The notes: a model not told the origin generated them from the letters alone. DNA of 54,587 bases from a virus (IMGVR_UViG_3300044712_000372:1-54587), one strand, 5' to 3'. Positions 5,189 to 54,576 are shown, counted from the stretch's first letter. Translations and numbers: made by a program.

Positions 5189-5258
5189 AGGCAGACTTAG
5201 TACTACGGTGGGAAACCAGTAGGGCTAGGACATAGGGTTCGAATCCCTAGTTTTCTGC
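5189..5258 (+). other. tRNA-like remnant or atypical small RNA
   Basis: A perfect T arm (TAGGG-TTCGAAT-CCCTA) is followed by TTTTCTGC, which pairs only partly with GCAGA at 5191. No normal anticodon arm can be drawn. Instead CTAC-TGG-GAAA-CCA-GTAG makes a GNRA-capped hairpin. The 3' end abuts the tRNA-Thr by one or two shared bases. Either a decayed tRNA or a tRNA mimic. Confidence 0.35.
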
Positions 5259-5330
5259 TCTTTTAGTTTAATGGTAGAACAACGGTTTTGTAGTCCGTTA
5301 GTGGTTGTTCGATTCAATCAAGGAGCACCA
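5257..5330 (+). tRNA. tRNA-Thr(TGT)
   Basis: The acceptor GCTCTTT pairs with AAGGAGC. The D stem is GTTT/GAAC, the anticodon loop TTTGTAG (anticodon TGT) and the T arm GGTTG-TTCGATT-CAATC, followed by discriminator A and an encoded CCA. The A of CCA is the first base of the terminase ATG, and AAGGAG of the acceptor strand is the terminase Shine-Dalgarno. One T-T mismatch closes the anticodon stem. Confidence 0.85.
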
Positions 5331-22900: not shown

Positions 22901-24671
22901 AGCCCTGTACAGATATGATGTACATGAACTCAAAAAGAGTGGGGTGAGGGGTGCTCTTGGTGATCGACCTTGGCTGACAAGAGAAGAGAATACTACTCAA
23001 CTCTTTAAATCTATTGTTGACCATCTAGAGGAAGGAGCTAGATATAACAGTATGCAGGGATTCCTCATGGATACTGCGAAACTAGCAAAAGATGAAAAGG
23101 TTAGAAGCACCATGCCAAATGCTGCTTCATGGGCTGAAAAATATGTTGCTAACATTCAAGGAAGCAACTTAGGGAACATCGGTGCTGCTGTAAACAAAGG
23201 CATTAACAATGTCATGAAGTTTACTGGTCAAGACCCACGTAAACTTACTGGGGCTATGGGTGTTCTTCAAGATGTATCTACCACAGCAATGATGGGGATG
23301 TTTAACGTTGGTTTTGCTACTGTTCAGATGCTCCAACCAGCAATGGCGTTTCCAGCTGAGGCTATGCGTATTAGAGCTGCTACTGGTCTAACTCATACAG
23401 AGCTAGCAAATGTTACAGCACAAGCCCATATTAACAGTCTCTTACTGCCTTTTAAATTCCTTCATAAGCATCTAGATCCTGATGTGCTTCATGCTTATAC
23501 TTGGGGTAAAGAGCGCGGCCTTGTAGACTTCTCAGAAGCTCAGCTTGCTCATGAACTACTGGTAAATCCTTACTGGAAGGGAGCTAAAAAGGTAGCTAAC
23601 CTATCAATTAGTCTTCCAGAAAAGATGACCAGACCTCCTGTATTCCTAGCCTATTACGACATGTTTAAGAGAGCTGGGTATGTTGGGGAAGAGGCTTTGC
23701 TGCGAGCACAAGCGGCTACTGACTACAGTATGGTGAACTACCACATGGACGAACGTCCAATGGTATATCAGCAACTAGGTCAGCCTGGAAAAGCTTTGGG
23801 TGCGCTCTCTACTTATAAGCATAATTTAGTTGAGCAGTGGGTAAATACTTGGGTAAACAAAGGAACACAACCAGAAGCAGCATCGGCTATGATTGCTACT
23901 GCGCTAATGTTCTACGGTGTTACTGGTATGCCCGGATATGACCACGCTGATCAACTATTTAAAAAGCTAACGGGTGGGAAGAGCATTAGAGAAGTTTTAC
24001 TAAGCGATCCAACTAAAGGAAATGTTTTGTTAGATGGAGCACTTTCTGCCCTAACTAATGTAGATTTTCAGACTCGTCTTTCTACTTCTCATATTTTCCC
24101 AGATCCAACAAATCCAGCAAATATTGCTCCTCACGTAGGAAACATTAGTTCTTGGATTGTTGCGGGATATGAGGCAGGAAAGAATCAAGATGAGGCCAGC
24201 CTTCGTAATCTAGCCTACACTGCTCTTCCATCATCAGCACGTAATGTGTATGAAATGGAAGGTCTTACAGATGCCAATGGTATGGTAAGAAAAGCAGACG
24301 GAAGTGTTAAGAGTAACCGGCCTTGGACAGAGTCAGAAAGAAAAGTTAGGGAGATTGGTGGATTTAGACCTCTTGACGAGAGACTAACTGAGCAAACTCT
24401 TTATGGTCGTCAGCAAAGAGTCTTTAATGATGCCAAGAAAAGAAAAGAAGCTCAAGATAGGTTTGTCACTGCTATTGGACTAGGAGATAAGTCTGGTGCT
24501 GTTAAAGCACGAGATAGGTTTCTTGAGTATGGTGGTGATCCTTCTCAGCTAGATACAATTGAGAAAGCACTAATTAAAAAGAACATGACTCCTACACAAA
24601 GAGCCATGCCTCAAGAAATAAATGATCTTTCTCAAATGTACAATGCCCAAGTACTCCAAGGACAACGATGA
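19989..24671 (+). CDS. Giant ejection protein with ADP-ribosyltransferase-like segment
   Basis: 1560 residues, the largest gene. The N-terminus (YENTHYELPDGLTPDEAKQK) is a common opening of phage polyvalent virion proteins. Around residues 410-640 is a segment with ART-PolyVal features: SPMILLHATQNAFEGKPEAR, then YGYEAPAFFTAQYGSNRKNL, and later FNIDGVFYRNTGESAKSILL. Downstream are long helical regions and a membrane-active looking stretch (TAMMGMFNVGFATVQMLQPA). It is probably packaged in the head and injected with the DNA, so an enzyme domain could act on host targets at once. The conserved Glu of ARTs cannot be assigned confidently. Confidence 0.72.
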   Translation: MAHYVYENTHYELPDGLTPDEAKQKILNHLGQQKVDSFYSNLGEKAKGVGEAAWGTLKGAVAGIQAPGAALIKGITGQLPEGQTVEKEANRLMQDQSYQPTTETGQDLLDKMGKLVNDVVMPMTGVHIPIAGGMLPGAKSALKSTGALAPHPSGIPNEPIASGQGAIASKLGEMQKPAEIPNAQEAGQKAFQNIADSQLNGWQEPIRNNAPNPEQSMPFIVQQLERQRQEAAQRALEARQTELEQQVGRQTSLDMNAAERARQQAAPIPGLEEARLREIEDSIAKTQELNTRGQQMSIVEDFGNNDPMSRMPNMRVDENGIPIRADLSIEAQQLQNPLQRNLWGDELPVKTGDGGIPLTQAIDKMPPGPERDLGISQLSGFRKSQNGALDPEVFKQGFRQVNKIISKLTDQPWVRERFPASHYMTNKDGSPMILLHATQNAFEGKPEARYEGLHAGYGYEAPAFFTAQYGSNRKNLYRNSGVPVKENTAVYPMAVKRGNYLYMDHDLGSWEPVSIVEGYGLTRFSRAIAKKMGVHPDIVEARLILEQNKFGIGMRHEKSPRETSQEFGKFLKEAFNIDGVFYRNTGESAKSILLGHAGDRPSPARSRQYAEAIDHNISFVTWNDENLVSLYGETPSQISKREPNTWMTGLGNSQAGGVNFGLADKIVDLVNKYKPTKPTPPKDSITSPRTPETIQAKESLNRKAKAIGETAYDRVTTPEEVIHKASPDVDISKLGDNSLRSGSEAVLRTNPKNPLINFIRSMGQKARNDFEVFSKQWVTGQDGVVAAVNALRKDKEALASVAEALVEGDRRQMVFTDEHFQSFGWNEKQVTLYKKIREAFDALYTLHSDVAMTQGFEPVKPRPGYVPSNFDGAFVSFVGFTDKSGRWVTTGIAQGRSTKEVRAAIAKYKEMGEKYAEAKPVEFRGLKERSADSYSKFSGFQDLIARLAQIDPEGFGKAKRISDQAVMDDVRALYRYDVHELKKSGVRGALGDRPWLTREENTTQLFKSIVDHLEEGARYNSMQGFLMDTAKLAKDEKVRSTMPNAASWAEKYVANIQGSNLGNIGAAVNKGINNVMKFTGQDPRKLTGAMGVLQDVSTTAMMGMFNVGFATVQMLQPAMAFPAEAMRIRAATGLTHTELANVTAQAHINSLLLPFKFLHKHLDPDVLHAYTWGKERGLVDFSEAQLAHELLVNPYWKGAKKVANLSISLPEKMTRPPVFLAYYDMFKRAGYVGEEALLRAQAATDYSMVNYHMDERPMVYQQLGQPGKALGALSTYKHNLVEQWVNTWVNKGTQPEAASAMIATALMFYGVTGMPGYDHADQLFKKLTGGKSIREVLLSDPTKGNVLLDGALSALTNVDFQTRLSTSHIFPDPTNPANIAPHVGNISSWIVAGYEAGKNQDEASLRNLAYTALPSSARNVYEMEGLTDANGMVRKADGSVKSNRPWTESERKVREIGGFRPLDERLTEQTLYGRQQRVFNDAKKRKEAQDRFVTAIGLGDKSGAVKARDRFLEYGGDPSQLDTIEKALIKKNMTPTQRAMPQEINDLSQMYNAQVLQGQR

Positions 24672-25186
24672 TAACTTTAGAGCAACTTTCTAAGGTTTAT
24701 AGGGAAGCCACTATACTCAGGTTGGGGGAGTGGCTCCCTCTTTTAAACCAAACAATGCTAAGATATGAGATAAACACTCCCATACGGATTCAAATGTTCC
24801 TAGCTCAAGTTGGTCATGAATCGGGACAATTGCGTTACGTGGAAGAGTTAGCGTCAGGCAAAGCCTATGAAGGACGAGTTGACCTTGGGAATGTCTCACC
24901 CGGGGATGGGGTAAAATATAAAGGCCGGGGACTGATTCAGATAACCGGACGCAATAACTACGCACTTGTTTCACTAGCTCTGGATCAAGATTTCTTGGAT
25001 AATCCAGAACTACTGTCCACAGAGCAGTATGCTGCGTTGTCGGCAGGATGGTTCTGGTCAAATAACAATTTAAATACATATTGTGACAAGGATGATTTTA
25101 GAGGGTTGACTAAACGTATTAATGGTGGGTATAACGGTTGGGAAGACCGTTTAAAACTCTACAATAGAGCAAAAGAGGTTATATAA
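24668..25186 (+). CDS. Endolysin, GH19 chitinase-like lysozyme
   Basis: 172 residues of the glycoside hydrolase 19 family that cleaves peptidoglycan in phages. The catalytic Glu lies in FLAQVGHESGQLRYVEE (about residues 42-58), followed by VKYKGRGLIQITGRNNYALV and AALSAGWFWSNNNLN, the family core. RINGGYNGWEDRLKLYNRA closes the domain. No signal peptide, so release needs the holin at 4804. Its ATG overlaps the stop of the giant virion protein, which fits late expression. Confidence 0.88.
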   Translation: MITLEQLSKVYREATILRLGEWLPLLNQTMLRYEINTPIRIQMFLAQVGHESGQLRYVEELASGKAYEGRVDLGNVSPGDGVKYKGRGLIQITGRNNYALVSLALDQDFLDNPELLSTEQYAALSAGWFWSNNNLNTYCDKDDFRGLTKRINGGYNGWEDRLKLYNRAKEVI

Positions 25187-28517: not shown

Positions 28518-30161
28518 TCAAACGCCGCACGAGCCTCCGTGACCGGAGATGTCACAGATGTCATTTTCTTCAAAGACGACCCCTTTATGGGAAAGGGCTT
28601 CTGAGTAACTAACTTCGGTGAGGGGTTGACCTCCTCTACTTCCATCTGGATAACACGTAAATCCTCGCAGGCGTGGTGCGTAAAAGGCCAACGTTTTCGC
28701 AAAGTTTTCTGTATCTCCGCTATCATTCCCCTTCGATCCGAATTTAGGAAGGTTGATAGTAGAGCTGATTGACATGTCAACGTAATCTTGAATGTCTGCT
28801 TGGAATTTGATTCTTCGTTCATAGTCATGACTTAGTTTATAGGCTGTATCAATGTTATCTGGATTTAGTCCATATTCCCGAATGAGCTGGTCTGCTGTAC
28901 TGTCCACGACGTACTCGTATTTCCATTTTGTACCATCCGTGAGATATCGTCTTTTGTAAGCGACGGCGAACAGAGGCTCGATACCGGTAGTCGTCCCAGC
29001 AAGAATACCGATCGTTCCAGTAGGAGCAATCGCTCGATAGGCGACTGGTCTAGAAATGAAGAATCTGTCACAATGCTCATCGGCACTTCGTTTGCTTTCA
29101 TCCCTATATACCTTTAACCATTCGTGAAGTTCTGGTGTGACTTCATATTGTTGTCCTCGCTTGAGGAGCCATTCGTGGATGCCCATGAGGCCAAGTCCAA
29201 GCCGTCGGTTTTTCTCTCTAACCTTATAGACTTTTTCATAGGGTAGGTCGGCCCGGAGAGTTCCACAAACAAGGAACTTGCTAGCGAGTTGTACGACTGA
29301 CTTGAATTCTTCCAGACTTGCAATATTGCCAAGATTGATACTTCCAAGATTGCATACGTCAGAATCATCCTCGCTCGTAACTTCAGTGCAGGCATTGCGA
29401 AGAGTTTCATTTTGTTTAGATCCAAAGTTGAAAGAGAACCCAGGTTCTCCAGTGCTCATGGCTTGCAGCACATTCGCGCGGAACGTCGAGTTATTCTCTA
29501 GTCCGCCTTCCATAGCAGCGTCATCATAGTTGACGCTAATGTTAGTCATGTCAAGCGGCGCTGGCGAGTTAAAATCTTTCGCCTTGGATTCTCGAACCTC
29601 TTGGCTCCAGTTTTTTGCTCTGAGGAAGTCAGGAATATCTTCATGTTGCCAGTTGAGAGACGCATAGATTGCCGAGCGGCGAGATCCACCTTGCATAACA
29701 TTTCGGCCAATTTCGTTGATTGCGTACATGAGAGGGATTGGCCCCGAAGCAACGCCTCCAGTTCTCGACAAAGGCTTTCCAGCCGGGCGAAGTCTAGAGT
29801 AGTCAACCCCAATACCTCCACCAGTCATTAGACAAGACATAGCTCTCCATGTTACAGCACTCCATTCTTCTCTGGTGTCTTCTTCGGCTCGTAGCAAATA
29901 ACAATTGTTATAGGCTTTGTAGGGTCTTCCAGCATAATAAAGGTATCTTCCTCCAGGTAGGAAACGCATTTCTTTAATGTGCTGAGCCAAGTCTCTCCTG
30001 TCACTGTCTGACATAAGCGCAGGTAAGGTGCCCCATCTAGAGCCACAGACATCCTCAACAAGGCGGTCTGCGAGGGCGTCCCAGGAGTCGTTTGGTCCTT
30101 GTGCATATTTGTTCCTAAAAGTGTTTGCTGCAAAGCTGTTTTTAAATCTGTTTACTTGCAT
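28518..30161 (-). CDS. nrdJ: Ribonucleotide reductase, class II (adenosylcobalamin-dependent)
   Basis: 547 residues, making deoxyribonucleotides from ribonucleotides without an NrdB-type subunit. The first active-site Cys lies in YNNCYLLRAEED (about residue 87), TGGGIGVDYSRLRP follows, the N-C-E catalytic triad is in RNACTEV, and the second motif SDVCNLGSINLG is typical of NrdJ. The C-terminal tail CDISGHGGSCGV supplies the reductant thiols. It requires B12 from the host cell. Located after MazG-like and ThyX genes with overlapping stops and starts, it is the main enzyme of the phage dNTP operon. It is shorter than many NrdJ proteins but motif-complete. Confidence 0.88.
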   Translation of the reverse strand: MQVNRFKNSFAANTFRNKYAQGPNDSWDALADRLVEDVCGSRWGTLPALMSDSDRRDLAQHIKEMRFLPGGRYLYYAGRPYKAYNNCYLLRAEEDTREEWSAVTWRAMSCLMTGGGIGVDYSRLRPAGKPLSRTGGVASGPIPLMYAINEIGRNVMQGGSRRSAIYASLNWQHEDIPDFLRAKNWSQEVRESKAKDFNSPAPLDMTNISVNYDDAAMEGGLENNSTFRANVLQAMSTGEPGFSFNFGSKQNETLRNACTEVTSEDDSDVCNLGSINLGNIASLEEFKSVVQLASKFLVCGTLRADLPYEKVYKVREKNRRLGLGLMGIHEWLLKRGQQYEVTPELHEWLKVYRDESKRSADEHCDRFFISRPVAYRAIAPTGTIGILAGTTTGIEPLFAVAYKRRYLTDGTKWKYEYVVDSTADQLIREYGLNPDNIDTAYKLSHDYERRIKFQADIQDYVDMSISSTINLPKFGSKGNDSGDTENFAKTLAFYAPRLRGFTCYPDGSRGGQPLTEVSYSEALSHKGVVFEENDICDISGHGGSCGV

Positions 30162-30514
30162 TAACGAGTATCACCCTGTCCAATAATAGCATTCCGTCGT
30201 TGACGGTCTGCAAGTTTTTCAATGTTACTTTTCATTACTTCTTCCAAGGTCCATCCATTATCGTTACAGATAGCAGCAATGTTCCAAAGTACGTCTCCCA
30301 ATTCATAATGCAGCTTAGAAGCAGCTTGGTCAGGAGTAAAATCACCCCGAATAAGCCTATTAAACACACCAGCCACTTCACCGGCTTCTGAAAGTAATCC
30401 CAATACAGCAGCCTCAGCATTGTAAGTAGGAAGACGAAATCTCTTAACAGCTTCTTGATAATTATTCTGATTTATTGATTCTGCGACGGTCTGCCCCGAT
30501 TCGTTCACAAGCAT
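30161..30514 (-). CDS. MazG-like nucleotide pyrophosphohydrolase
   Basis: 117 residues, all-alpha NTP-PPase. The metal-binding pattern is LGLLSEAGEVAGVF (ExxE type) and HYELGDVLWNIAAIC (ExxD), preceded by YNAEAAV and followed by a Lys/Arg-rich end. MazG-type enzymes hydrolyse non-canonical or regulatory nucleotides such as (p)ppGpp-linked pools. The start at 30514 follows AAGGA; the stop overlaps the RNR start (TAATG). Confidence 0.8.
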   Translation of the reverse strand: MLVNESGQTVAESINQNNYQEAVKRFRLPTYNAEAAVLGLLSEAGEVAGVFNRLIRGDFTPDQAASKLHYELGDVLWNIAAICNDNGWTLEEVMKSNIEKLADRQRRNAIIGQGDTR

Positions 30515-30707
30515 TAGCAAATTCCTTTAAAGATTCAATTGTAAAATGAAAGTCTCGGTGTAGTTGTGCCAAACACCAATCAATTTCTTTCTCATGTAAG
30601 CTACCCCCATGTTCTTTCATGAGCTGTAAGTCAGCTTGCATATCAGCAATGAGGTGAGAAGCTAAGTCAGTTAAGTGTTCTGGAGTCATTCCATTAAAGC
30701 TTTCCAC
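30462..30707 (-). CDS. Hypothetical helical protein (81 aa)
   Basis: Small acidic helical protein (LTDLASHLIADMQADLQLMK; EIDWCLAQLHRDFHFTIESL) whose end overlaps the MazG-like gene and whose start overlaps ThyX. It resembles many small dNTP-operon proteins of unknown role. No motif recognised. Confidence 0.5.
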   Translation of the reverse strand: MESFNGMTPEHLTDLASHLIADMQADLQLMKEHGGSLHEKEIDWCLAQLHRDFHFTIESLKEFANACERIGADRRRINKSE

Positions 30708-31366
30708 GAGTGTTCAAACTCTTTAGGAACAAGATCATTAATCATCTGAGCCACTTCCTGTGTTTCTGCTTGAGCATGAGCATCTAAACGAAGCTTACAC
30801 ACACGAGCAAAGAACATAAGAGAGCCAGTCCAAATCCATTCAGTCATAGTATTTTGAGGCAGGATCATTCGTGCTTGCTCAGGAGCTACACCCAACTCAA
30901 TCATTCCAAGATAATCACTCAAGCATTGCTCTACAGTGTCCATCACTCCTTGAGTAATATGGGCTTCCATTTCTACTTCACCATTACTACCTTGCTTAGC
31001 ATTTACCGGCTTTCCACGCCAAACTTTAGGGAACCAGAATTCTGGCTCATCATCCACATAACGTCTACTAACCTCATTCCAGACGCCTCCAACTTGATGT
31101 TTAACAAGCTGTCTGGCGACGAAGATAGGAGCTTTAATTCGGAATTGGAGAGAGGTATGAGCAAACGGGCTCCAGTGATTGTGTCTTGCAAGGTAAGAAA
31201 TGAGTTTTTGGTCTTTCTCTTGAAGACGCTCATTACAGCGTCCATCATGTTTAATGTCATAATCCCAATCACTTTCCTTAGCAAAACTCACTCTAGCAGC
31301 ATTAACTACAGATAGGTCACTACCCATATAGTCAATGAGTTCTACAGACATTTCAGCGATTTTCAT
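30686..31366 (-). CDS. thyX: Flavin-dependent thymidylate synthase
   Basis: 226 residues. Makes dTMP from dUMP using FAD/NADPH and methylene-THF. The ThyX motif appears as KHQVGGVWNEVSRRY (about residues 85-99), preceded by SPFAHTSLQFRIKAP and followed by the substrate loop EQARMILPQNTMTEWIWTG. The catalytic-region residues expected in ThyX are present. An in-frame upstream TTG was not used; ATG 31366 overlaps the previous stop (ATGA). Confidence 0.88.
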   Translation of the reverse strand: MKIAEMSVELIDYMGSDLSVVNAARVSFAKESDWDYDIKHDGRCNERLQEKDQKLISYLARHNHWSPFAHTSLQFRIKAPIFVARQLVKHQVGGVWNEVSRRYVDDEPEFWFPKVWRGKPVNAKQGSNGEVEMEAHITQGVMDTVEQCLSDYLGMIELGVAPEQARMILPQNTMTEWIWTGSLMFFARVCKLRLDAHAQAETQEVAQMINDLVPKEFEHSWKALME

Positions 31367-31581
31367 TCTTTTGCCCAATCAGGATATTTGTTTTTTGGTA
31401 ACCAGAATAATGACTGTCCTGGCTCATAATTTGTTCCTTTTAACTCAATATGTTCTTCTGGAATGATACGTTTACCCATAATATCCCATTCGTAATCAGT
31501 CATCTCAGACTCTTTAGTTCCATAATAATATCTATATGCTGAAGTTAACCACAAACGATACTCTTTATCTGTTAGACTCAT
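31363..31581 (-). CDS. Small protein resembling the start of NAD-dependent DNA ligase (72 aa)
   Basis: Residues 6-35 (EYRLWLTSAYRYYYGTKESE, then MTDYEWDIMGKRI) follow the pattern of the Ia domain of bacterial LigA, in which tyrosines and an aspartate bind NMN. Only this domain is present (72 residues against about 670 in LigA), so ligase activity is impossible alone. It may be an NMN-binding leftover or a regulator of host ligase. Resemblance is by motif only. Confidence 0.5.
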   Translation of the reverse strand: MSLTDKEYRLWLTSAYRYYYGTKESEMTDYEWDIMGKRIIPEEHIELKGTNYEPGQSLFWLPKNKYPDWAKE

Positions 31582-35129: not shown

Positions 35130-35203
35130 TGGAGCGGGTAGCGAGACTCGAACTCGCCTCTGAAGCTTGGAAGGCTACGGCACAACCTCTATACCATACC
35201 CGC
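35130..35203 (-). tRNA. tRNA-Gly(TCC)
   Basis: Acceptor GCGGGTA/TACCCGC with discriminator T and encoded CCA. Anticodon loop CTTCCAA (anticodon TCC, codon GGA), T arm GCGAG-TTCGAGT-CTCGC. The anticodon stem has one T-T mismatch. Very close to bacterial tRNA-Gly. Confidence 0.9.
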
Positions 35204-40292: not shown

Positions 40293-40558
40293 TCTTCGTC
40301 TCCATATTCATCTTCTTGATATCCACGACCTTGTCGTTCGATGTCATCATCCGTCATGGTAGAAATAATAAACACACCTAAAGGACCATGAGGAGTTTCC
40401 ACAATAGTTTTTACTTGGTGTGGGTGCCAAGGCTCAATATTAATGTTTGTGGTTAACATAATTCCCTGCACTTCGTCAATATCTCGTTCGCCATCAAAGA
40501 ATTCAGAACCACAGCAGGAACAAAAAGACTGTCCACTAGACAAATCAACTAACGTCAT
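40286..40558 (-). CDS. Duplicated zinc-ribbon protein, copy A (90 aa)
   Basis: Has a CSCCGSEFFDGERDIDE zinc-type cluster and the motif IVETPHGPLGVFIIST, both matched in the copy at 40829-41062. The C-terminal tail is acidic (DEYGDEEW). The start at 40558 (MTLVDLSSGQ) is followed by a plausible ribosome arrangement and overlaps the previous gene. It forms a two-gene unit with 39978-40292. Confidence 0.6.
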   Translation of the reverse strand: MTLVDLSSGQSFCSCCGSEFFDGERDIDEVQGIMLTTNINIEPWHPHQVKTIVETPHGPLGVFIISTMTDDDIERQGRGYQEDEYGDEEW

Positions 40559-40829
40559 TTTCTTTCTCAAAGATTACCAAGATATTATGCCCGTCCTTTT
40601 TGTCGTAATTCATATTACGTGCTAAAGGTGACACATAAAGAATCTTTATTCCCTTCTTTGGGGTATTTTCTAAGAAAAATTTATATTCTTTCTCCTGACC
40701 ATATTCCATAGAAAAAACTAGAAGACCGCCAGCTTTGTGATCGTTTTTAAACTCTTTTGGGATAGTGAAACGAAGAGGTTTTTTCCATTCATTCCATACC
40801 CAGTCGGCAACACTGTAGTCAGTAAACAT
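40545..40829 (-). CDS. Duplicated-cassette protein, copy B (94 aa)
   Basis: The core (KAGGLLVFSMEYGQEKEYKF, then GIKILYVSPLARNM, then HNILVIFEKEN) matches copy A at 39978-40292 over most of its length. Overlapping start/stop with the following zinc-ribbon copy A shows the same genetic arrangement as copy A with primase. Confidence 0.6.
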   Translation of the reverse strand: MFTDYSVADWVWNEWKKPLRFTIPKEFKNDHKAGGLLVFSMEYGQEKEYKFFLENTPKKGIKILYVSPLARNMNYDKKDGHNILVIFEKENDVS

Positions 40830-41879: not shown

Positions 41880-42804
41880 ACAGCTCTTCTCCTTGTTTCT
41901 TAAAAATATCCCAAGCTTCTAAGAGAAGGGTTTCTGGAACTTGCTTTTGACCAGCCTTCTTCATGAAAATATTTGATTTTTCAAGAATCTCAACTCCCAG
42001 GGATTTCATAACTTCATTGAAATAATCAGTCTCAATGACTCCAACCTTGGAGTTATATCCATCAGGCAAAGACATCATGTCTTGTACACTCATGGGAATA
42101 GATGTACCAAACACATACTCATTAAACGGTCTGGTATATCCGTAGCCTTCTGCCCAAGTACCACCAGAGATTTTAATGGGGGCTTTAGCCGCAAATCTAC
42201 GTTTGTCTAGGGTATGACCATAAGCTACATAGTAGGCTCTAGGATCATCATAAGTCCAATACCACGGAAGACGGAACATACCACCAGTTATCCCAGAGAA
42301 TTTAAGTAGGTGGTAAAGCACTGTTGGATCAGTGTTCATATCAGTTAAGATAAAGAAATTTTTCTTTACAATGAAAGAGCCTTCTTTACCTATACCAGAC
42401 ACCCACGGGGACTCTTGAGAAAGAGCCCAGTCCCAATACACTGGATTATTCTGTCTGTGATTTTCCCCGTAAGGTAAAGAAATATAAACAATTTCTCCAT
42501 CAGGGAACACAAGAGGAAAATCGCTTGGGAAATAAGAATTCATTGAGTATTTTTCCCCATGAATGACTTTATACTTACACAAGCCGCCATAACACGGCAT
42601 GTTTTTCATCCAATAAGTTAAATACTCATCTTCAACTTTTACCGTAATGGCATAGTTAAGGCCACGGCCACCGACTTCAGTAAAAAAATACTCAATAGCC
42701 GAAAGAGCTTCTTCTTTAGTAGTACTACGAATAAATTCGTAATCTTGTTTCTTAGGCGCAGACGCATTAGGAGGAAGAATCCAGCTTTTAGTTTCGATTT
42801 TCAT
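41866..42804 (-). CDS. Hypothetical protein linked to the peptide-ligase cluster (312 aa)
   Basis: 312 residues, alpha/beta with many aromatic residues (RSTTKEEALSAIEYFFTEVG; SGITGGMFRLPWYWTYDDPR; AEGYGYTRPFNEYVFGTSIP). I recognise no family. The stop-start overlap with the ATP-grasp gene at 42801 (ATGA) implies joint expression, so it may be the substrate, carrier or receptor of the modification system. Confidence 0.6.
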   Translation of the reverse strand: MKIETKSWILPPNASAPKKQDYEFIRSTTKEEALSAIEYFFTEVGGRGLNYAITVKVEDEYLTYWMKNMPCYGGLCKYKVIHGEKYSMNSYFPSDFPLVFPDGEIVYISLPYGENHRQNNPVYWDWALSQESPWVSGIGKEGSFIVKKNFFILTDMNTDPTVLYHLLKFSGITGGMFRLPWYWTYDDPRAYYVAYGHTLDKRRFAAKAPIKISGGTWAEGYGYTRPFNEYVFGTSIPMSVQDMMSLPDGYNSKVGVIETDYFNEVMKSLGVEILEKSNIFMKKAGQKQVPETLLLEAWDIFKKQGEELYGNA

Positions 42805-43517
42805 ACAAGTTTCTCCAGAGCTTCAACATACTTATCCACGGTAGTTCCCATTAGACCCGGGCGGCTGTTTACTTCGAGAACATAGAGTTTATCACGTTTC
42901 TCATTATAGATGATGTCAACTGCACCATACTGGTAACCCACAGCCGCAACTGCTGCGCAGGCAAGTTCATTAATACCAGTAGGGGGGACAACACCATTAC
43001 GAGTATAGACGTAACCATTAGAAACATTACGAATATGAGTGTCCCGAGTATCCTCAGCAAAGTCACGCTTTTTCTTCTTTTGTTGAACGTCAATTACTTG
43101 TCCATTAAACACATGGACTCGGTATTCTGCCTTTTTAGGAATATATGCCGTGTAGAGAGGAGCTTGAGGCGGATTAGGTGTAGTCTCCACGTCAAACTCG
43201 ACAATGCCTCTGCCAGAGGTACTGTTAATAAGGGTCCGTGCAAAAACAGTTTTACTGCCCAGCTCCCCAATTTCATTTCGATTAGTAGTAAACGCTGGTG
43301 CAGAAACAGAATGTTCCTTAAAACTACGGAATTGCTCCACCTTGTCCAGCGTTTGCTTAGTGACATAAAAAACCTTTTTACCTCTGCGTTGATGATCGTC
43401 CCCTTTTTCCGGAGAACATCTAACAACTCGAAGACCCTTTGCTTGAAGACCCTGTTGTAGGGTCTTAGCAAACTTAGAACCAACAGGCTTAACAGCAATA
43501 AATAAATCAGTTCGCAT
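42801..43517 (-). CDS. ATP-grasp carboxylate-amine ligase
   Basis: 238 residues, a compact ATP-grasp. SKTVFARTLINSTSGRGIVE forms the nucleotide-binding loop, KKAEYRVHVFNGQVIDVQQK the central strand with Arg, and YVLEVNSRPGLMGTT the metal-binding E-x-N motif (about 210-224). The family uses ATP to activate a carboxylate as acyl-phosphate and joins it to an amine, as in RimK and D-Ala-D-Ala ligase. The start at 43517 has GGAG upstream and overlaps the glutamine amidotransferase gene by 11 bases. Confidence 0.8.
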   Translation of the reverse strand: MRTDLFIAVKPVGSKFAKTLQQGLQAKGLRVVRCSPEKGDDHQRRGKKVFYVTKQTLDKVEQFRSFKEHSVSAPAFTTNRNEIGELGSKTVFARTLINSTSGRGIVEFDVETTPNPPQAPLYTAYIPKKAEYRVHVFNGQVIDVQQKKKKRDFAEDTRDTHIRNVSNGYVYTRNGVVPPTGINELACAAVAAVGYQYGAVDIIYNEKRDKLYVLEVNSRPGLMGTTVDKYVEALEKLV

Positions 43518-44844
43518 AATGAGTTTCTCCACTAACACACCAATCAATCATGTTCTTGCTAAGATTCACCGGCCATGCCGACATTACAGGAATATTGGGA
43601 TCGGCACCTTGGCCTCTAGTAATTACAGGATTACCTAAAGAGGCTAATAGTTCGTAGTTTTTCACATACTCTTCTACCTCCCCAACGCTACCCCTAACCA
43701 CAGCGTACACAGGAATACGGTCAGTAATGCCATGACAAGACTGAACAAACCCATAGAGGTAGAAGAAGTTGCAGTTGTCTTTGTACGACGCCATTTCCCA
43801 TCCACTCCATTGGATGATGACTTGCTTGTTATTCTCTTGTTTGAGGGCTTCGTTAATCTTGTCACGCTGATCTGTGGTGAGGGTGATTCCTGGGAAGTGT
43901 TTAGCAAATCCGAAACTAATTGACATATGGTTGGCGTCGAGGGCCGAGATTGTGTGGTAGCCCTCTTCGAAACCATAGAATTGTAGTCCGTTACTGGTAA
44001 CTTTACGAAAAGAACTGGTGTGTTCAGTAATAGCCCCCGAGGTGCTCTCTCCACTCTTGCCACCACTCTGACTCTGCTGGGGCCATACCTGTACCGCAAA
44101 AGGGCGGACAGTGCCCTTATAGGCAATATCCAGCTTGGTTTTGGTTATCGTGTAGTCTTCCCTCGGACCAGCAGAAAAATCAAATTTAATGTGAGTACCA
44201 ACAGGGACTTCCTTCGGTGCGTGTTTAAAGTTAATGTCGTGCCGGTCGCAGGCGGCATACATAATACCCCACTCACTAAAGAAAAACAACGAACCTAAAG
44301 TATCTTCAGTCCACCACAAAGGACGCTCGTGGTTTCTGATAATGTTTAGGGATTTTTCTTTATCATTCCACCAAACCAATACATAGGCTGCATTGATTTT
44401 TTGTAGAGCAGTTTCCAGTTCACCGGGATGTTCTGCAATAACGTGAGCAACTGCTTCAGTATCCACCTCAGTATTCTTATGATGCTTGTGGTCACCCACA
44501 TAAGTACCATTCTGAAGGAGAACAATGTGATTATCCACGATGAAAGGATGGCTATTTTCATCCTTTTTGACTCCTCGGGTAGCAGCACGATTGTGCCCAA
44601 AGGCCCACCGACTATTACCAAAGAGTTCCTGAGACATGGTTTTAGCTTCCGGCTTACCAAGGAATTCCCACGCCGGGGAGGCTTCCTTCATAATCACAGT
44701 TTCACCATTGTTTCTCCCATACATGACACCAGTACCATCAGTACCGCGTAGAGCGTCAATGTAAAGACCATCCATGAACGCATCACGCTCATCAGTAGAA
44801 AAACCAACCTTAGACTTAGGAATAATTCCAACAATACCACACAT
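43507..44844 (-). CDS. Class II glutamine amidotransferase-like protein
   Basis: 445 residues. Starts MCGIVGIIPKS; Cys2 becomes the N-terminal nucleophile as in GATase II (Ntn) enzymes. WAFGHNRAATRGVKKDENSH matches the conserved R and His region, and IVLLQNGTYVGDHKHHKNTE the GDxx/NG region. It releases ammonia from glutamine, usually for transfer to a partner. The C-terminal half (about 220-445) is not a synthetase or isomerase domain that I recognise; it may dock with the ATP-grasp or amidoligase proteins encoded next to it. Confidence 0.8.
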   Translation of the reverse strand: MCGIVGIIPKSKVGFSTDERDAFMDGLYIDALRGTDGTGVMYGRNNGETVIMKEASPAWEFLGKPEAKTMSQELFGNSRWAFGHNRAATRGVKKDENSHPFIVDNHIVLLQNGTYVGDHKHHKNTEVDTEAVAHVIAEHPGELETALQKINAAYVLVWWNDKEKSLNIIRNHERPLWWTEDTLGSLFFFSEWGIMYAACDRHDINFKHAPKEVPVGTHIKFDFSAGPREDYTITKTKLDIAYKGTVRPFAVQVWPQQSQSGGKSGESTSGAITEHTSSFRKVTSNGLQFYGFEEGYHTISALDANHMSISFGFAKHFPGITLTTDQRDKINEALKQENNKQVIIQWSGWEMASYKDNCNFFYLYGFVQSCHGITDRIPVYAVVRGSVGEVEEYVKNYELLASLGNPVITRGQGADPNIPVMSAWPVNLSKNMIDWCVSGETHYAN

Positions 44845-44849
44845 AATAA

Positions 44850-45929
44850 TTAACCGTTATTTTGTTGAGCTTGAATTTGAGCAATAGTATTTGCAACCCA
44901 CTCATTATTGAACACGTGTGCTGCTGCTGGCGGAAGGATAGTCTGTGTGTTCACAGGGATAGGATTTACTGCATTACCAGTTGTAGGAAGAGGCGCACCT
45001 TGCGCCCAAATATCATAGAATTTCGATCCGCGCGCTGGCTTCGGCTTCCTGGTATCTACAACCGCCTTCATTTCTCTAGCCACATTGTATTTCAGCGCCA
45101 TTACCCCATGCTCCATATCTCGTTCGAGAGTAATAGTAGACAGCGCTTGGCCAAGGAAAAGAGGTACATCACGAAAAACTTCAGCAAAGAATTTTCTATA
45201 TTCACTGCTAGTATTCAGGCTAAGAATACGTTCTCGTAAAGCATCTTTATTGACTGTTTGGGCATACAGCAGCATCGCTGCCAAAATATCACACCAAACC
45301 AAGATTTTAGTATAGTCTACTTGTCCAGCCAAATGGCGGAACTCAATAGTACCTAAATCCCGCATTCTGGTGAGATTCAATGCAGTATATTTTTCCCACT
45401 GCATCCATTTTGCAGCACACACTTGTGGGTCAACACTACAGAAAACGGCGCCTGCTGTAATAGAAGTGTCATGCCAAGGAACGCAGAAAATATTCTTATC
45501 TCGTTCATCCCCCACAAAAGCAAACAAGACTCTTTCAAAGACTTGATACAGCATAAACAGACAGTTCAAATCTTCAAAAGTAACGTCCTGCACATTCATG
45601 TGCACATGGGCGCTGCACCGTTCAGTGAAGTTCTTTTCCGTAAACTGACCCCTCTTGTAAAAAGCTTCCAGTAGTTGTGCAAGAGTAGCACGATTCACAG
45701 GGGCAGTAACAAACTCTGCATTGTACCCCCGCAAACTACCATCTTCCTTGATAGAGATACCAGGAACAGCATAGCTATTCAGCGAGCGCTCATCGTCAAG
45801 ATTCTCAATCTCTAGTTCTACACCAAAGAAGAGCTTATCATTTTTTGGTTTATCAGCCACAGGATAAGCAGAATATCTACCTTCCTTAACTTTGGTCAAG
45901 CCAAAAATTTCCAGAATAGTCTTAGGCAT
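44850..45929 (-). CDS. Amidoligase, COOH-NH2 ligase (Amidoligase_2-like)
   Basis: 359 residues of the glutamine-synthetase-fold amidoligases. Motifs in order: FFGVELEIENLDD (metal-binding Glu), IKEDGSLRGYNAEFVTAPV, RCSAHVHMNVQD (metal-binding His), RMRDLGTIEFRHLAG (Arg for substrate/phosphate). It activates a carboxylate with ATP and forms an amide bond. The start at 45929 (MPKTILEIFGL) follows AAGGTGG and overlaps the previous gene. The C-terminal 60 residues are Pro/Asn/Gln-rich and probably flexible. Confidence 0.8.
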   Translation of the reverse strand: MPKTILEIFGLTKVKEGRYSAYPVADKPKNDKLFFGVELEIENLDDERSLNSYAVPGISIKEDGSLRGYNAEFVTAPVNRATLAQLLEAFYKRGQFTEKNFTERCSAHVHMNVQDVTFEDLNCLFMLYQVFERVLFAFVGDERDKNIFCVPWHDTSITAGAVFCSVDPQVCAAKWMQWEKYTALNLTRMRDLGTIEFRHLAGQVDYTKILVWCDILAAMLLYAQTVNKDALRERILSLNTSSEYRKFFAEVFRDVPLFLGQALSTITLERDMEHGVMALKYNVAREMKAVVDTRKPKPARGSKFYDIWAQGAPLPTTGNAVNPIPVNTQTILPPAAAHVFNNEWVANTIAQIQAQQNNG

Positions 45930-46509
45930 TTTCAACCACCTTGAAATCTTGGAATCGAGGAAGTCTCTTAACCACATCAAATACTTCTTGCATAAAAAGT
46001 TTGCTAACTAAAATTAGCTTTTTAGTTGGATCAATCGTCCCAATAGGAATGTCGAAAAAGAATATAGTGTTATTTTCACTGAGGGCAAAAGCAGGACTAA
46101 GATATCTGTCAGATGGAACATCGGGAGGGAAGAAAATCGTCTTGAGGTTTTCAAAACCTGGACTAAAGGTAAGAGGGACATCTCCTGAAAGAGAAGAAAA
46201 ATAACAGTTATCCGAGGAAATACCACGTCGCCACTGGCGACGAGGCCGACGAATAGTAAGAATTGGAGACCCCTTCTCAGTCGGCCACCAGCGTCTTTCC
46301 AATGTAGGAAACTCAAAAGAGATAGCACTGTTGACTACCACATGCTGCGTCAGTCCGTCTTCTTCGCTAAACTCAGCGGTAGAGTTATCTGCGTTTAGAA
46401 ACCTAATCAGTTTTCTAGGTTGTCCAGTTTTATGTAGAAAACCAAAGCAGCCAACGTAGCGCTGCTCCCAATCAGGAGCAGTCTCACTGTTGTAACGAAT
46501 AAGTCCCAT
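45922..46509 (-). CDS. Hypothetical protein in the amidoligase cluster (195 aa)
   Basis: Beta-rich, with an aromatic and Pro-rich character (FEFPTLERRWWPTEKGSPIL; RRPRRQWRRGISSDNCYFSS; FFFDIPIGTIDPTKKLILVS). It is sandwiched between two amidoligase genes and overlaps both, so it is probably part of the same pathway, perhaps a substrate-binding partner. No family recognised. Confidence 0.55.
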   Translation of the reverse strand: MGLIRYNSETAPDWEQRYVGCFGFLHKTGQPRKLIRFLNADNSTAEFSEEDGLTQHVVVNSAISFEFPTLERRWWPTEKGSPILTIRRPRRQWRRGISSDNCYFSSLSGDVPLTFSPGFENLKTIFFPPDVPSDRYLSPAFALSENNTIFFFDIPIGTIDPTKKLILVSKLFMQEVFDVVKRLPRFQDFKVVENA

Positions 46510-47291
46510 TAAATCACCTTCAAAGAATAGTCCTTCACAAGAGACATAGCAACCGCCTTATTGTTGTTATTGATTGCCTCAGCAATTTGCTGATCAAGAG
46601 ACATTACATCCATCCCCTGTTGCAGTGCCTCCACTGCTTGATGAGTAGCATCCCAAGCCCAATTACGGGTTTCCGGAGAAAGAACCCAGAAGTTACTCAG
46701 AGTTCGATACTCCATGCCATAAGGCTTATAGCGCATAGCGCCACGCTTACCATACAGTTCCTTACGCAGTTCCCCATTGTCCATGAGAACACTGGGAACA
46801 CCGGCATAAAGATCCATAAGTCGGCCCATTCGCTCAGCGGTAGCAGCATCCACTTTGCCTAGACCAATATGAATATGTCCGCCACAAGAACGCAGGCGCT
46901 TATCAGCGGCCTCGGGCTTTGGATTCATCTTGCCGGTCCAAGCATCGTAGTCTGGTTCACAACCAAACGCTTGAGCGGCCGGATTATCCAACTGATCTTC
47001 CGGGAACAAAGCGGCTGATAGGTTGCTGAAAGATAGCCCGTATTGTTCCTTGGTAAAAGCTTGCAGGAACTCAATGGTCTTTTGAATAGAACTGTCCCAC
47101 TCTTCACGACTACCAGCCGGAGGAATGTTAAATTCCACGGCCACGTTGTCTTCTTGAACAGCATAGCCGTCACCAAGAGGAAGTTGAGCAGGCACAGCCT
47201 TAGTGCCACCGATCAGACCAATACACGAATGAACAGCACCGGCGGCGTCGGCCAGGAACAGTTCAGGATCACAACCAAGAGTAAGTTTCAT
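46509..47291 (-). CDS. Amidoligase, phiEco32-type COOH-NH2 ligase 2
   Basis: 260 residues. GCDPELFLADAAG (metal-binding E), VQEDNVAVEFNIPPAGSREE, LRSCGGHIHIGLGKVD (metal-binding His) and GMEYRTLSNFWVLSP are the defining motifs of the phage COOH-NH2 ligase type 2 family described for phiEco32-like phages. It is expected to join a carboxylate and an amine with ATP. Unusually GC-rich compared with the late genes. Confidence 0.82.
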   Translation of the reverse strand: MKLTLGCDPELFLADAAGAVHSCIGLIGGTKAVPAQLPLGDGYAVQEDNVAVEFNIPPAGSREEWDSSIQKTIEFLQAFTKEQYGLSFSNLSAALFPEDQLDNPAAQAFGCEPDYDAWTGKMNPKPEAADKRLRSCGGHIHIGLGKVDAATAERMGRLMDLYAGVPSVLMDNGELRKELYGKRGAMRYKPYGMEYRTLSNFWVLSPETRNWAWDATHQAVEALQQGMDVMSLDQQIAEAINNNNKAVAMSLVKDYSLKVI

Positions 47292-48134
47292 TTATTCACC
47301 TTGAACAAGAACAAAACGCAATTTATCACCTTGAGAAGGATAGTTGTGGTTAGAATAGTCATCATACCACAAAACTTTTCCAGATTTTTCTAAAACATCC
47401 CACCATTGGACATAACCATCTGATTTATCAGGATGTTTCCAGCCTACACTACTGGGAATTACTACTAAAGATGGCGCACGCCATTTACCCCAGGTAGGAT
47501 TAGAAGGATATCCACCAAAAACATCACTTAATGCACAAAAGTTTAGGGCTTTTTGTTTGGGGAATGGTTTAAACTTCTTCCCTTCAATTTTCCATGCCTT
47601 TAGACTAATTCCATCACAGAGTTCAAACGTCTCATTTGGGCGGCCTGCAGCATCCCAAGGTCGTAGATCCGTGCAATTATCGTAGTATTCTTTCGCTCGT
47701 TTATTTTCGTTGTCTTCTACATAATGCCCAGTAGGAAAAAGTAAGTTACACCCGCGCCGCTGATACATATACATACTGTACTCAGCACTTTCAATTTTTT
47801 CGTCCGTTGCAGACCCCAAAATACCACGATATCGAGAGTCATAATACTCTCGAAATTCTTTAATTTCATTTAATCTACTTTTTTCCCTACAGTTTAAATA
47901 AAAGTCTATATTTCTTGTAGTAAACCTATTAACAGCCTTAAAAGCAATAGTTTTTTCTACACTGTCTTTCGGAGCGTTTAAATAAGTGGAAAGACTTGCT
48001 GCATAAGTTTCTTTAAACGCCGAAAAAGACGAATTTCTACCTAAAACCCCTACACCACAACAAGCTGAGAAAAGTTGTCCGGTAGTTATTCCAGGATGGG
48101 CAAATAGATCCTGAATTGTTTGTTCAGAGTACAT
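47292..48134 (-). CDS. Hypothetical protein (280 aa) in the amidoligase cluster
   Basis: 280 residues with several cysteines, a Tyr/Arg-rich middle (RNIDFYLNCREKSRLNEIKE; YYDSRYRGILGSATDEKIES) and a C-terminal beta-like region. The Cys-rich N-terminus (GQLFSACCGVGVLGRNSSFS) is suggestive of a metal site or small-peptide substrate. No family recognised. It touches the amidoligase start and overlaps the GAT/C26 gene by 11 bases. Confidence 0.55.
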   Translation of the reverse strand: MYSEQTIQDLFAHPGITTGQLFSACCGVGVLGRNSSFSAFKETYAASLSTYLNAPKDSVEKTIAFKAVNRFTTRNIDFYLNCREKSRLNEIKEFREYYDSRYRGILGSATDEKIESAEYSMYMYQRRGCNLLFPTGHYVEDNENKRAKEYYDNCTDLRPWDAAGRPNETFELCDGISLKAWKIEGKKFKPFPKQKALNFCALSDVFGGYPSNPTWGKWRAPSLVVIPSSVGWKHPDKSDGYVQWWDVLEKSGKVLWYDDYSNHNYPSQGDKLRFVLVQGE

Positions 48135-48750
48135 TCTTTTCTAGGAGCTTATCTCGAATCCAAAGACTGGCTTCAGCATCTGCATTCATCATTTCAGGAT
48201 GCCACTGAACACCCATACCAAGACCCGGATACCAAACAGCCTCGGGTTCACAAGGAACCTCAACCATTTCACCTCCATCGTCGTAATATTTGGACCGCCT
48301 CGGGGACCAAGCCAGCAGCTCATGATCGACCCCCCATGGTGCCTGCATTTGATGGTGAATGCTGTTGACCAGCAGTTCTTTACCATCAGAGGTTTTGATG
48401 GTATGTCGGGAGCCTGAATGATTGGTGACATCCTGAATCAGATACCCACCAGCCAGCGCACACATTAGCTGAGCGCCGCGGCAAATACCAAATACAGAAA
48501 TACCCTTCGCTTGTGCAGCGCGTGCCAGCGCAACTTCAAGATCATCACGGCTACTCGCCGGACCAGTTGCGCGGCTGCGTGGCTTCCCATAGATTTCGGG
48601 GGCCACGTCTTCACCGCCATGAAGAATAAGCATACCAGGACCATCGAAGTCGTTAGGACTCCGCACAGTCTTATATGCAACCGTATCACCCAGATACAGA
48701 TCGAAAGGATGGAAGTCGCGCCAGAGCGCAGAATAAAGAGTCTTTTTCAT
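48124..48750 (-). CDS. Class I glutamine amidotransferase / peptidase C26
   Basis: 208 residues. LHGGEDVAPEIYGKP, VFGICRGAQLMCALAGG (catalytic Cys), VNSIHHQMQAPWG and GMGVQWHPEMMN (catalytic His and Glu) match PuuD-type gamma-glutamyl-gamma-aminobutyrate hydrolases. Such enzymes hydrolyse gamma-glutamyl amides, so it could remove or turn over what the amidoligases make, or free an amine donor. Strong chance of being functional because the triad is complete. Confidence 0.82.
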   Translation of the reverse strand: MKKTLYSALWRDFHPFDLYLGDTVAYKTVRSPNDFDGPGMLILHGGEDVAPEIYGKPRSRATGPASSRDDLEVALARAAQAKGISVFGICRGAQLMCALAGGYLIQDVTNHSGSRHTIKTSDGKELLVNSIHHQMQAPWGVDHELLAWSPRRSKYYDDGGEMVEVPCEPEAVWYPGLGMGVQWHPEMMNADAEASLWIRDKLLEKNVL

Positions 48751-52160: not shown

Positions 52161-52247
52161 TGGTCCCCCGAGTCGGACTCGAACCGAACATGACCGTAGT
52201 CGGCAGGGCTTAAACCTGCTGTGTCTACCAAATTCCACCATCGGGGG
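52161..52247 (-). tRNA. tRNA-Leu(TAA), class II
   Basis: Acceptor CCCCCGA/TCGGGGG, discriminator A and encoded CCA, anticodon stem GCAGG/CCTGC with loop TTTAAGC (anticodon TAA, codon TTA), and an extended variable arm. Six bases after the CCA comes the ATG of the next gene. Confidence 0.88.
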
Positions 52248-54417: not shown

Positions 54418-54494
54418 TGGTCTGCCCGGAGGGACTCGAACCCCCGACCTGCTGCTTAGAAGGCAGCTGCTCTATCCAGTTGAGCTACGGGCAG
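54418..54494 (-). tRNA. tRNA-Arg(TCT)
   Basis: Acceptor CTGCCCG/CGGGCAG, discriminator A, encoded CCA. D stem GCTC/GAGC, anticodon loop CTTCTAA (anticodon TCT, codon AGA), T arm GGGGG-TTCGAGT-CCCTC. Its 3' end is followed after 5 bases by the hammerhead ribozyme. Confidence 0.92.
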
Positions 54495-54499
54495 ATGTT

Positions 54500-54576
54500 T
54501 GGTAGGCCATGTAGGACTCGAACCTACGACTAACCGATTATGAGTCGGCTACTCTAACCAACTGAGTTAATGGCCC
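54500..54576 (-). tRNA. tRNA with CAT anticodon, probably tRNA-Ile2
   Basis: Acceptor GGGCCAT/ATGGCCT (one G-T pair), discriminator A, encoded CCA; D stem ACTC/GAGT; anticodon loop CTCATAA; T arm GTAGG-TTCGAGT-CCTAC. C4-G69 and C5-G68 and the G27-T43 pair agree with tRNA-Ile2, which TilS modifies to read AUA, better than with elongator Met. This is inferred, so Met remains possible. Confidence 0.88.

Follow-up and report, generated by a model that had tools for sequence, protein, structure and literature searches.

Gene content and relationship to known cassettes

The virus record IMGVR_UViG_3300044712_000372 from IMG/VR (54,587 bp; the term window is used here for this whole stretch of DNA) contains, on the minus strand between positions 42801 and 48750, a cluster of ligase and amidotransferase genes that is almost certainly a member of the amidoligase cassette of phages of the phiEco32, LUZ24 and RIO-1 type. 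In the order of transcription the genes encode a C26 peptidase, an orphan protein of 280 residues, a ligase of family PF14395, a protein of 195 residues, an amidoligase of family PF12224, a class-II glutamine amidotransferase (GAT-II) and a RimK-like ATP-grasp ligase, followed by an orphan of 312 residues, with open reading frames (ORFs) that abut or overlap by a few bases (Table 1). All ORFs named in a first-pass annotation of this DNA were found on the minus strand at the places it gave, and its enzyme assignments were borne out by Pfam and PHROG matches and by conservation of the catalytic residues in alignments with relatives. On the same strand, the replication genes (DNA polymerase, DnaB-like helicase, primase, ribonucleotide reductase (RNR), the thymidylate synthase ThyX and an exonuclease) lie downstream of the cassette, and the plus strand carries the terminase, portal, head and head-closure genes.

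The features that identify the cassette are the two glutamine synthetase (GS)-like ligases of families PF14395 and PF12224 with intact motifs, the adjacent GAT-II and ATP-grasp genes on the same strand, a gamma-glutamyl-cleaving enzyme, and the protein of about 190 residues. In the window the cleaving enzyme is C26, with a Cys-His-Glu catalytic triad of the PuuD/SpuA type. A putative seven-gene peptidoglycan modification cassette was described in RIO-1-like phages, with phiEco32, 7-11, PA11, tf, MR299-2, LUZ24, PaP3 and CW02 as named carriers (PMC5498523). The cluster is thus not new, as had been supposed at first, since it was already published for phiEco32, LUZ24, PaP3, PA11, CW02 and RIO-1. 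With these cassettes it shares both GS-like ligases, GAT-II, the ATP-grasp ligase, the 195-residue protein and a gamma-glutamyl-cleaving enzyme, as well as the location on one strand adjoining replication genes. Gene content and order were confirmed in phiEco32, a LUZ24-like phage, Privateer, an Alcaligenes phage, HP1, PA11 and CW02, with the GAT-II gene placed differently in PA11, CW02 and HP1 than in the window. The window further differs in having C26 without the GGCT family (PF06094), which was not detected anywhere in it; GGCT occurs in published cassettes but is not a defining element, since PA11 also lacks it. Additional differences are an extra amidoligase and the identity of the orphans, both in the slot that separates C26 from the PF14395 ligase and downstream of the cassette. 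In Alcaligenes phage vB_Af_QDWS535 (OK172329) the order is C26, slot genes, PF14395 ligase, a protein of about 200 residues, PF12224 amidoligase, GAT-II and ATP-grasp, but GGCT is also present and the PF14395 ligase has 45.5% identity to that of the window.

Table 1 Positions of the cassette genes, related proteins and other features
Feature	Position	Strand	Remarks
C26 peptidase/gamma-glutamyl hydrolase-like, 208 residues	48124..48750	-	PF07722, 4.1e-22; Cys90-His184-Glu186
Orphan, 280 residues, hypervariable slot between C26 and PF14395 ligase	47292..48134	-	CCG at residue 25
phiEco32-type COOH.NH2 ligase (GS-like), 260 residues	46509..47291	-	PF14395, 3.6e-12; PHROG, 2.2e-79
Core cassette protein, 195 residues	45922..46509	-	R-x-P-x-[RK]-Q-x-x-R-G motif at 87-96
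PF12224 amidoligase (GS-like), 376 residues as listed	44850..45980	-	PF12224, 4.1e-10; likely start 45929
GAT-II, 445 residues	43507..44844	-	GATase_6, PF13522, 1.1e-14
RimK-like ATP-grasp ligase, 248 residues as listed	42801..43547	-	PF08443, 1.6e-4, just over cut-off; probable start 43517
Orphan directly downstream, 312 residues	41866..42804	-	without Pfam, PHROG or cassette relative
Third, divergent amidoligase, 212 residues	53515..54153	-	PF12224, 5.3e-5, just over cut-off
CCG-type proteins	47292-48134; L049:8219-8596; L061:7513-8265; L064:8914-9288; L021:1153-1818; L016:14829-15257; L002:7673-8407		window and related loci
Short-domain proteins, 104 and 94 residues	39978-40292; 40545-40829		one domain family
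MazG pyrophosphohydrolase; ThyX	30161-30520; 30686-31378		
Endolysin candidate, GH19-like	24668-25186		PF00182, 7.7e-8
HslV-like protein, 147 residues	28044-28487		PHROG 1040, 2.2e-30
tRNA-Thr	5257-5330	+	immediately ahead of terminase
tRNA-Gly, -Leu, -Arg and -Met	35130-35203; 52161-52247; 54418-54494; 54500-54576	-	

Conservation of the cassette as a unit

Scans of viral contigs yielded 80 loci via the PF14395 ligase and 79 via C26. Annotation with hidden Markov models covered 92 loci (the window and L006-L096), a few of which, L007 and L008 for example, are near-duplicates. In 56 of the 92, C26, PF14395 ligase, 195-residue protein, PF12224 amidoligase, GAT-II and ATP-grasp follow each other in exactly this order; the others are cut by contig ends or rearranged. 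Such agreement of six conserved genes in 56 loci goes beyond chance, and the cluster is one conserved module. Among the 75 loci of at least 12 kb that were anchored on the PF14395 ligase, PF12224 and GAT-II were each found in 74, ATP-grasp in 72, C26 in 71, the 195-residue protein in 63 and GGCT in 9. When loci were found via C26 alone, all five other families were present in 53 of the 79 and four of the five in 12 more. The cassette genes thus co-occur across related phages instead of turning up singly in unrelated contexts, and for each of the 15 pairs among the six proteins the distance matrices are correlated (rho 0.29-0.54; 0/300 permutations). The proposal that the genes form a module for a multistep amide-bond pathway agrees well with this joint inheritance.

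The PF14395 ligase is present in 313 sequenced phage records and in 421 confirmed stretches of environmental viral contigs. Among bacterial and archaeal genome contigs, only nine PF14395 loci were detected, all on contigs of metagenome-assembled genomes; several of these contain the cassette and probably derive from phages.

The 195-residue core protein

Of the three proteins without assigned function that had been counted as parts of the pathway, only the 195-residue one has a conserved place in the cassette. It has 72 distinct homologues at the same position, and a profile recovered it, between the two ligases, in each of the seven named cassette phages checked; in the records of which the annotation was checked, the homologues are labelled hypothetical protein. 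No Pfam or PHROG family was found for it at the cut-offs used. An AlphaFold2 model of high quality (pLDDT 95, pTM 0.87) gave confident full-length structural matches to phage proteins only, including those of CW02 and Vp_R1. Against the PDB, the only similarity was an SH3/Sm-like barrel, a common arrangement, over the first ~70 residues (Z about 5). The protein is a hitherto unnamed core member, and its fold is predicted with confidence and restricted to phages.

In nine loci without this gene (L011, L055, L059, L074, L076, L077, L080, L085 and L086) the PF12224 protein carries an additional N-terminal domain of about 150-250 residues (~170). Fusion of the 195-residue protein to the amidoligase was considered as an explanation and rejected, as profile comparison with the N-terminal extension gave a probability of 0.03%.

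Ligases and amidotransferase

GAT-II enzymes liberate ammonia from glutamine, and GS-like and ATP-grasp ligases form amide bonds via acyl phosphates. The residues expected for such activities are well preserved. In the PF14395 ligase D8, E10, E53, H139, H141, E194 and R196 are invariant over 11 aligned phages, and in the PF12224 ligase the motifs G-x-E-x-E-x-E, D-G-S-L, S-x-H-x-H and E-F-R are invariant over 10. Sequence searches of the PDB gave no meaningful match for either GS-like family, and the GS-fold label used here for both ligases derives from Pfam names, literature and motifs, and not from a computed structure. In the ATP-grasp protein E141, R143, K157, D211, E225 and N227 are invariant among relatives. 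It shares with RimK the ATP-grasp domain and the metal- and ATP-binding residues, but differs in its borderline Pfam score, divergent N-terminal half and multi-ligase setting. The listed starts of the ATP-grasp and PF12224 genes are judged to be too early, since the alignments of relatives begin at 43517, an internal ATG that is probably the true start, and at 45929, likewise the likely start of the amidoligase.

The GAT-II protein begins with MCG and retains RG-x-D-x-TG, GHNR-x-AT-x-G and NGT. Its conservation ends after the first ~220 residues, and the C-terminal half is poorly conserved; the model of this half has low confidence (pLDDT 60) and gave no good match to known synthase domains (best Z 3.7). 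Because conservation stops at about residue 220, the enzyme has no conserved synthase domain and a built-in acceptor domain is unlikely, so that ammonia is probably passed in trans to a partner ligase.

The third amidoligase, located some 4.8 kb upstream, had been counted in with the pathway, but its distribution does not support a place in the core. Orthologues are found upstream of the cassette only in L028 and L029, although 40 loci hold at least 5.5 kb upstream of C26, and from this pattern the gene is to be regarded as accessory and outside the core.

Probable cleavage of gamma-glutamyl amides

C26 and GGCT enzymes break gamma-glutamyl amides. The C26 triad Cys90-His184-Glu186 is invariant over 7 phages, and the closest solved structures are 3fij (Lin1909), 7d4r/7d50/7d53 and 6vtv (PuuD). 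In a sample of 51 whole records, which leans towards relatives of the window, C26 occurs alone in 39, GGCT alone in 5 (4 distinct, Privateer being present twice) and both in 5, giving totals of 44 for C26 and 10 for GGCT; the remaining 2 lack a full copy of either, with part of a C26 gene at the edge of the contig. HP1 has GGCT, PA11 has C26 and CW02 has both. Thus no cassette phage examined is without a gamma-glutamyl-cleaving enzyme family, be it C26 or the unrelated GGCT, and this gives good support to the gamma-glutamyl hydrolysis step that had been proposed. GGCT is commoner where C26 is absent (Fisher p 0.007; with edge fragments counted as C26, p 0.0005; the records are few and partly related). 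That the two would be strict alternatives is ruled out by the five records and CW02 that carry both. Since two unrelated folds serve the same cassette, a gamma-glutamyl amide is the best-supported intermediate.

A similar pairing of an amide ligase with a gamma-glutamyl-removing enzyme exists in the Puu polyamine and butirosin pathways, where the latter is PuuD (C26-type) and BtrG (GGCT-type), respectively. These pathways use other ligase families, and the cassette is without their oxidase, dehydrogenase or carrier protein.

Variable slot and neighbouring genes

The 280- and 312-residue proteins gave no Pfam or PHROG family at the cut-offs and no detectable relatives among the cassette loci, nor were relatives of the 280-residue protein found in viral contigs. 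Both genes are probably outside the pathway, and the 312-residue one is probably accessory. The slot occupied by the 280-residue protein is hypervariable and holds different proteins in relatives, in a LUZ24-like phage one that belongs to a PHROG of unknown function. A CCG motif is present in 9 of 34 slot ORFs as compared to 19 of 818 other gene proxies, and very divergent, CCG-enriched proteins occupy the slot as well as the flanks of the C26 and ATP-grasp genes. Part of these also have a C-terminal N-x-N-[ST]-G about 80-115 residues further on (6 proteins versus 0.22 expected); as both motifs were first spotted by inspection, the p-values are optimistic. The CCG proteins that were tested gave no Pfam, confident PHROG or PDB match. 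The likeness of the 280-residue protein to this family, with CCG near the N-terminus and N-H-N-Y...G-D near the C-terminus, was seen by eye, and profile scores are non-significant. Two proteins of 104 and 94 residues elsewhere in the window belong to one short domain family, members of which are also found as the C-terminal part of slot proteins from related phages.

Elsewhere in the window there are five tRNA genes and a protein of 147 residues that matches PHROG 1040 ('peptidase HslV family', a proteasome-like family) and has no Pfam match. PADLOC defence-system models gave no match to ten proteins at E 0.01.

Possible function

The explanation that we consider best, at about even odds, is that a cassette of known type runs a multistep amide pathway, most likely on a cell-wall precursor. 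The pathway would most likely be cytoplasmic and expressed in mid-infection. GAT-II would release ammonia from glutamine for a partner ligase, and the two GS-fold ligases and the RimK-like ATP-grasp enzyme would each use ATP to make a single amide bond, which in at least one case would be gamma-glutamyl. C26, or GGCT in other phages, would then cut the gamma-glutamyl amide, by which the product is unmasked or glutamate recycled. The 195-residue protein would be a constant partner that perhaps acts as a scaffold or binds substrate. The order of these reactions is inferred. As target, a soluble cell-wall precursor peptide seems the most likely candidate, leading to an altered wall of the infected cell that could protect, for example, against superinfection; taken by itself, the choice of the wall is a hypothesis to which we give somewhat less than an even chance.

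Modification of the wall has been a proposal in the literature as well (PMC5498523; PMC10580990; PMC11945000). The first and last of these papers cite Iyer 2009 and Hardies 2013, and the superinfection idea for phiEco32 is credited to Iyer 2009 by PMC10580990. In the LUZ24-like phage PaP3, the region with the PF14395 ligase is transcribed alongside replication genes, with a peak at 10-30 min (PMC4707531); PaP3 p48 was identified as this ligase via the PA11 record. In a simple hydropathy check the cassette proteins displayed no obvious membrane-spanning or signal-like segment, and they look cytosolic. Enzymes with this timing and location could act on soluble wall precursors, but also on metabolites or proteins.

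Several points weigh against the interpretation as a wall-directed pathway. The co-inheritance also reflects common phage ancestry, which by itself would suffice for correlated distances. The joint occurrence of C26 and GGCT in several phages means that they are no simple substitutes, and C26-type folds also serve as glutaminases, which makes gamma-glutamyl hydrolysis less than certain. In the PDB the ATP-grasp protein is nearest to RimK, a protein-tail ligase, and to alpha-L-glutamate ligases, and D-Ala-D-Ala ligases score lower. Because the predicted endolysin of this phage is GH19-like and glycan-cleaving, nothing here supports the notion that the cassette readies peptide sites for it.

The similarity to RimK is what suggests protein tagging, in which the ATP-grasp ligase and the amidoligases would extend the tail of a host protein, such as a ribosomal or transcription protein, with C26 or GGCT trimming it. 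The ATP-grasp protein has RimK and alpha-L-glutamate ligases as nearest solved relatives and matches the PHROG 'ribosomal protein S6 glutaminyl transferase' (1.5e-48), and for the related R2K clade it was proposed that the phage ATP-grasp enzymes modify proteins (PMC4431377). On the other hand, three different ligases, a GAT-II and a gamma-glutamyl-cleaving enzyme exceed the needs of a tail ligase, no conserved target protein is encoded alongside the core, and GGCT is known to work on small gamma-glutamyl amines, so that we regard tagging as unlikely.

The constancy of a gamma-glutamyl-cleaving enzyme, of two unrelated folds, and the match of the C26 profile to PuuD, a gamma-Glu-GABA hydrolase, would also fit a gamma-glutamyl-masked small molecule made by butirosin- or Puu-like logic, for instance a signal, toxin or anti-defence compound instead of a wall precursor. 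A dedicated export or carrier protein is missing from the conserved core, and we consider this rather improbable. The same low weight is given to a more elaborate scheme, in which the cassette would make a new small molecule or precursor with its amino group held as a gamma-glutamyl amide that either enzyme can unmask, the 195-residue protein would be a dedicated scaffold or binder, and the hypervariable CCG proteins would serve as targets or adaptors in an arms race between phage and host.

Salvage of nitrogen or amino acids, with the genes acting as auxiliary metabolic genes that shift nitrogen among glutamine, glutamate and gamma-glutamyl compounds for replication, is a shade less probable again; the GS-like families found here are not glutamine synthetases, and the fixed order and the phage-only core protein across very different phages suggest a dedicated product. 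Modification of DNA by an amide-linked side chain, although bases bearing amines or amino acids occur in phages, is highly improbable and the earlier suggestion of DNA as substrate finds no support, as ThyX, RNR and MazG were the only nucleotide-metabolism enzymes in the proteins scanned (part of the ORFs of the window) and none of the cassette proteins is similar to known base-modifying enzymes.

Implications

The present analysis adds to the published cassette a 195-residue core member, a constant gamma-glutamyl-cleaving enzyme family, a GAT-II without a conserved synthase domain, and the recognition that the orphan genes are not conserved. The neighbouring 280- and 312-residue genes, which are probably outside the pathway, are now singled out. 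Experiments on this cassette thereby gain a sharper definition of their object: six conserved genes, of which one was never annotated, a constant gamma-glutamyl-cleaving step, and an amidotransferase that probably passes its ammonia on.

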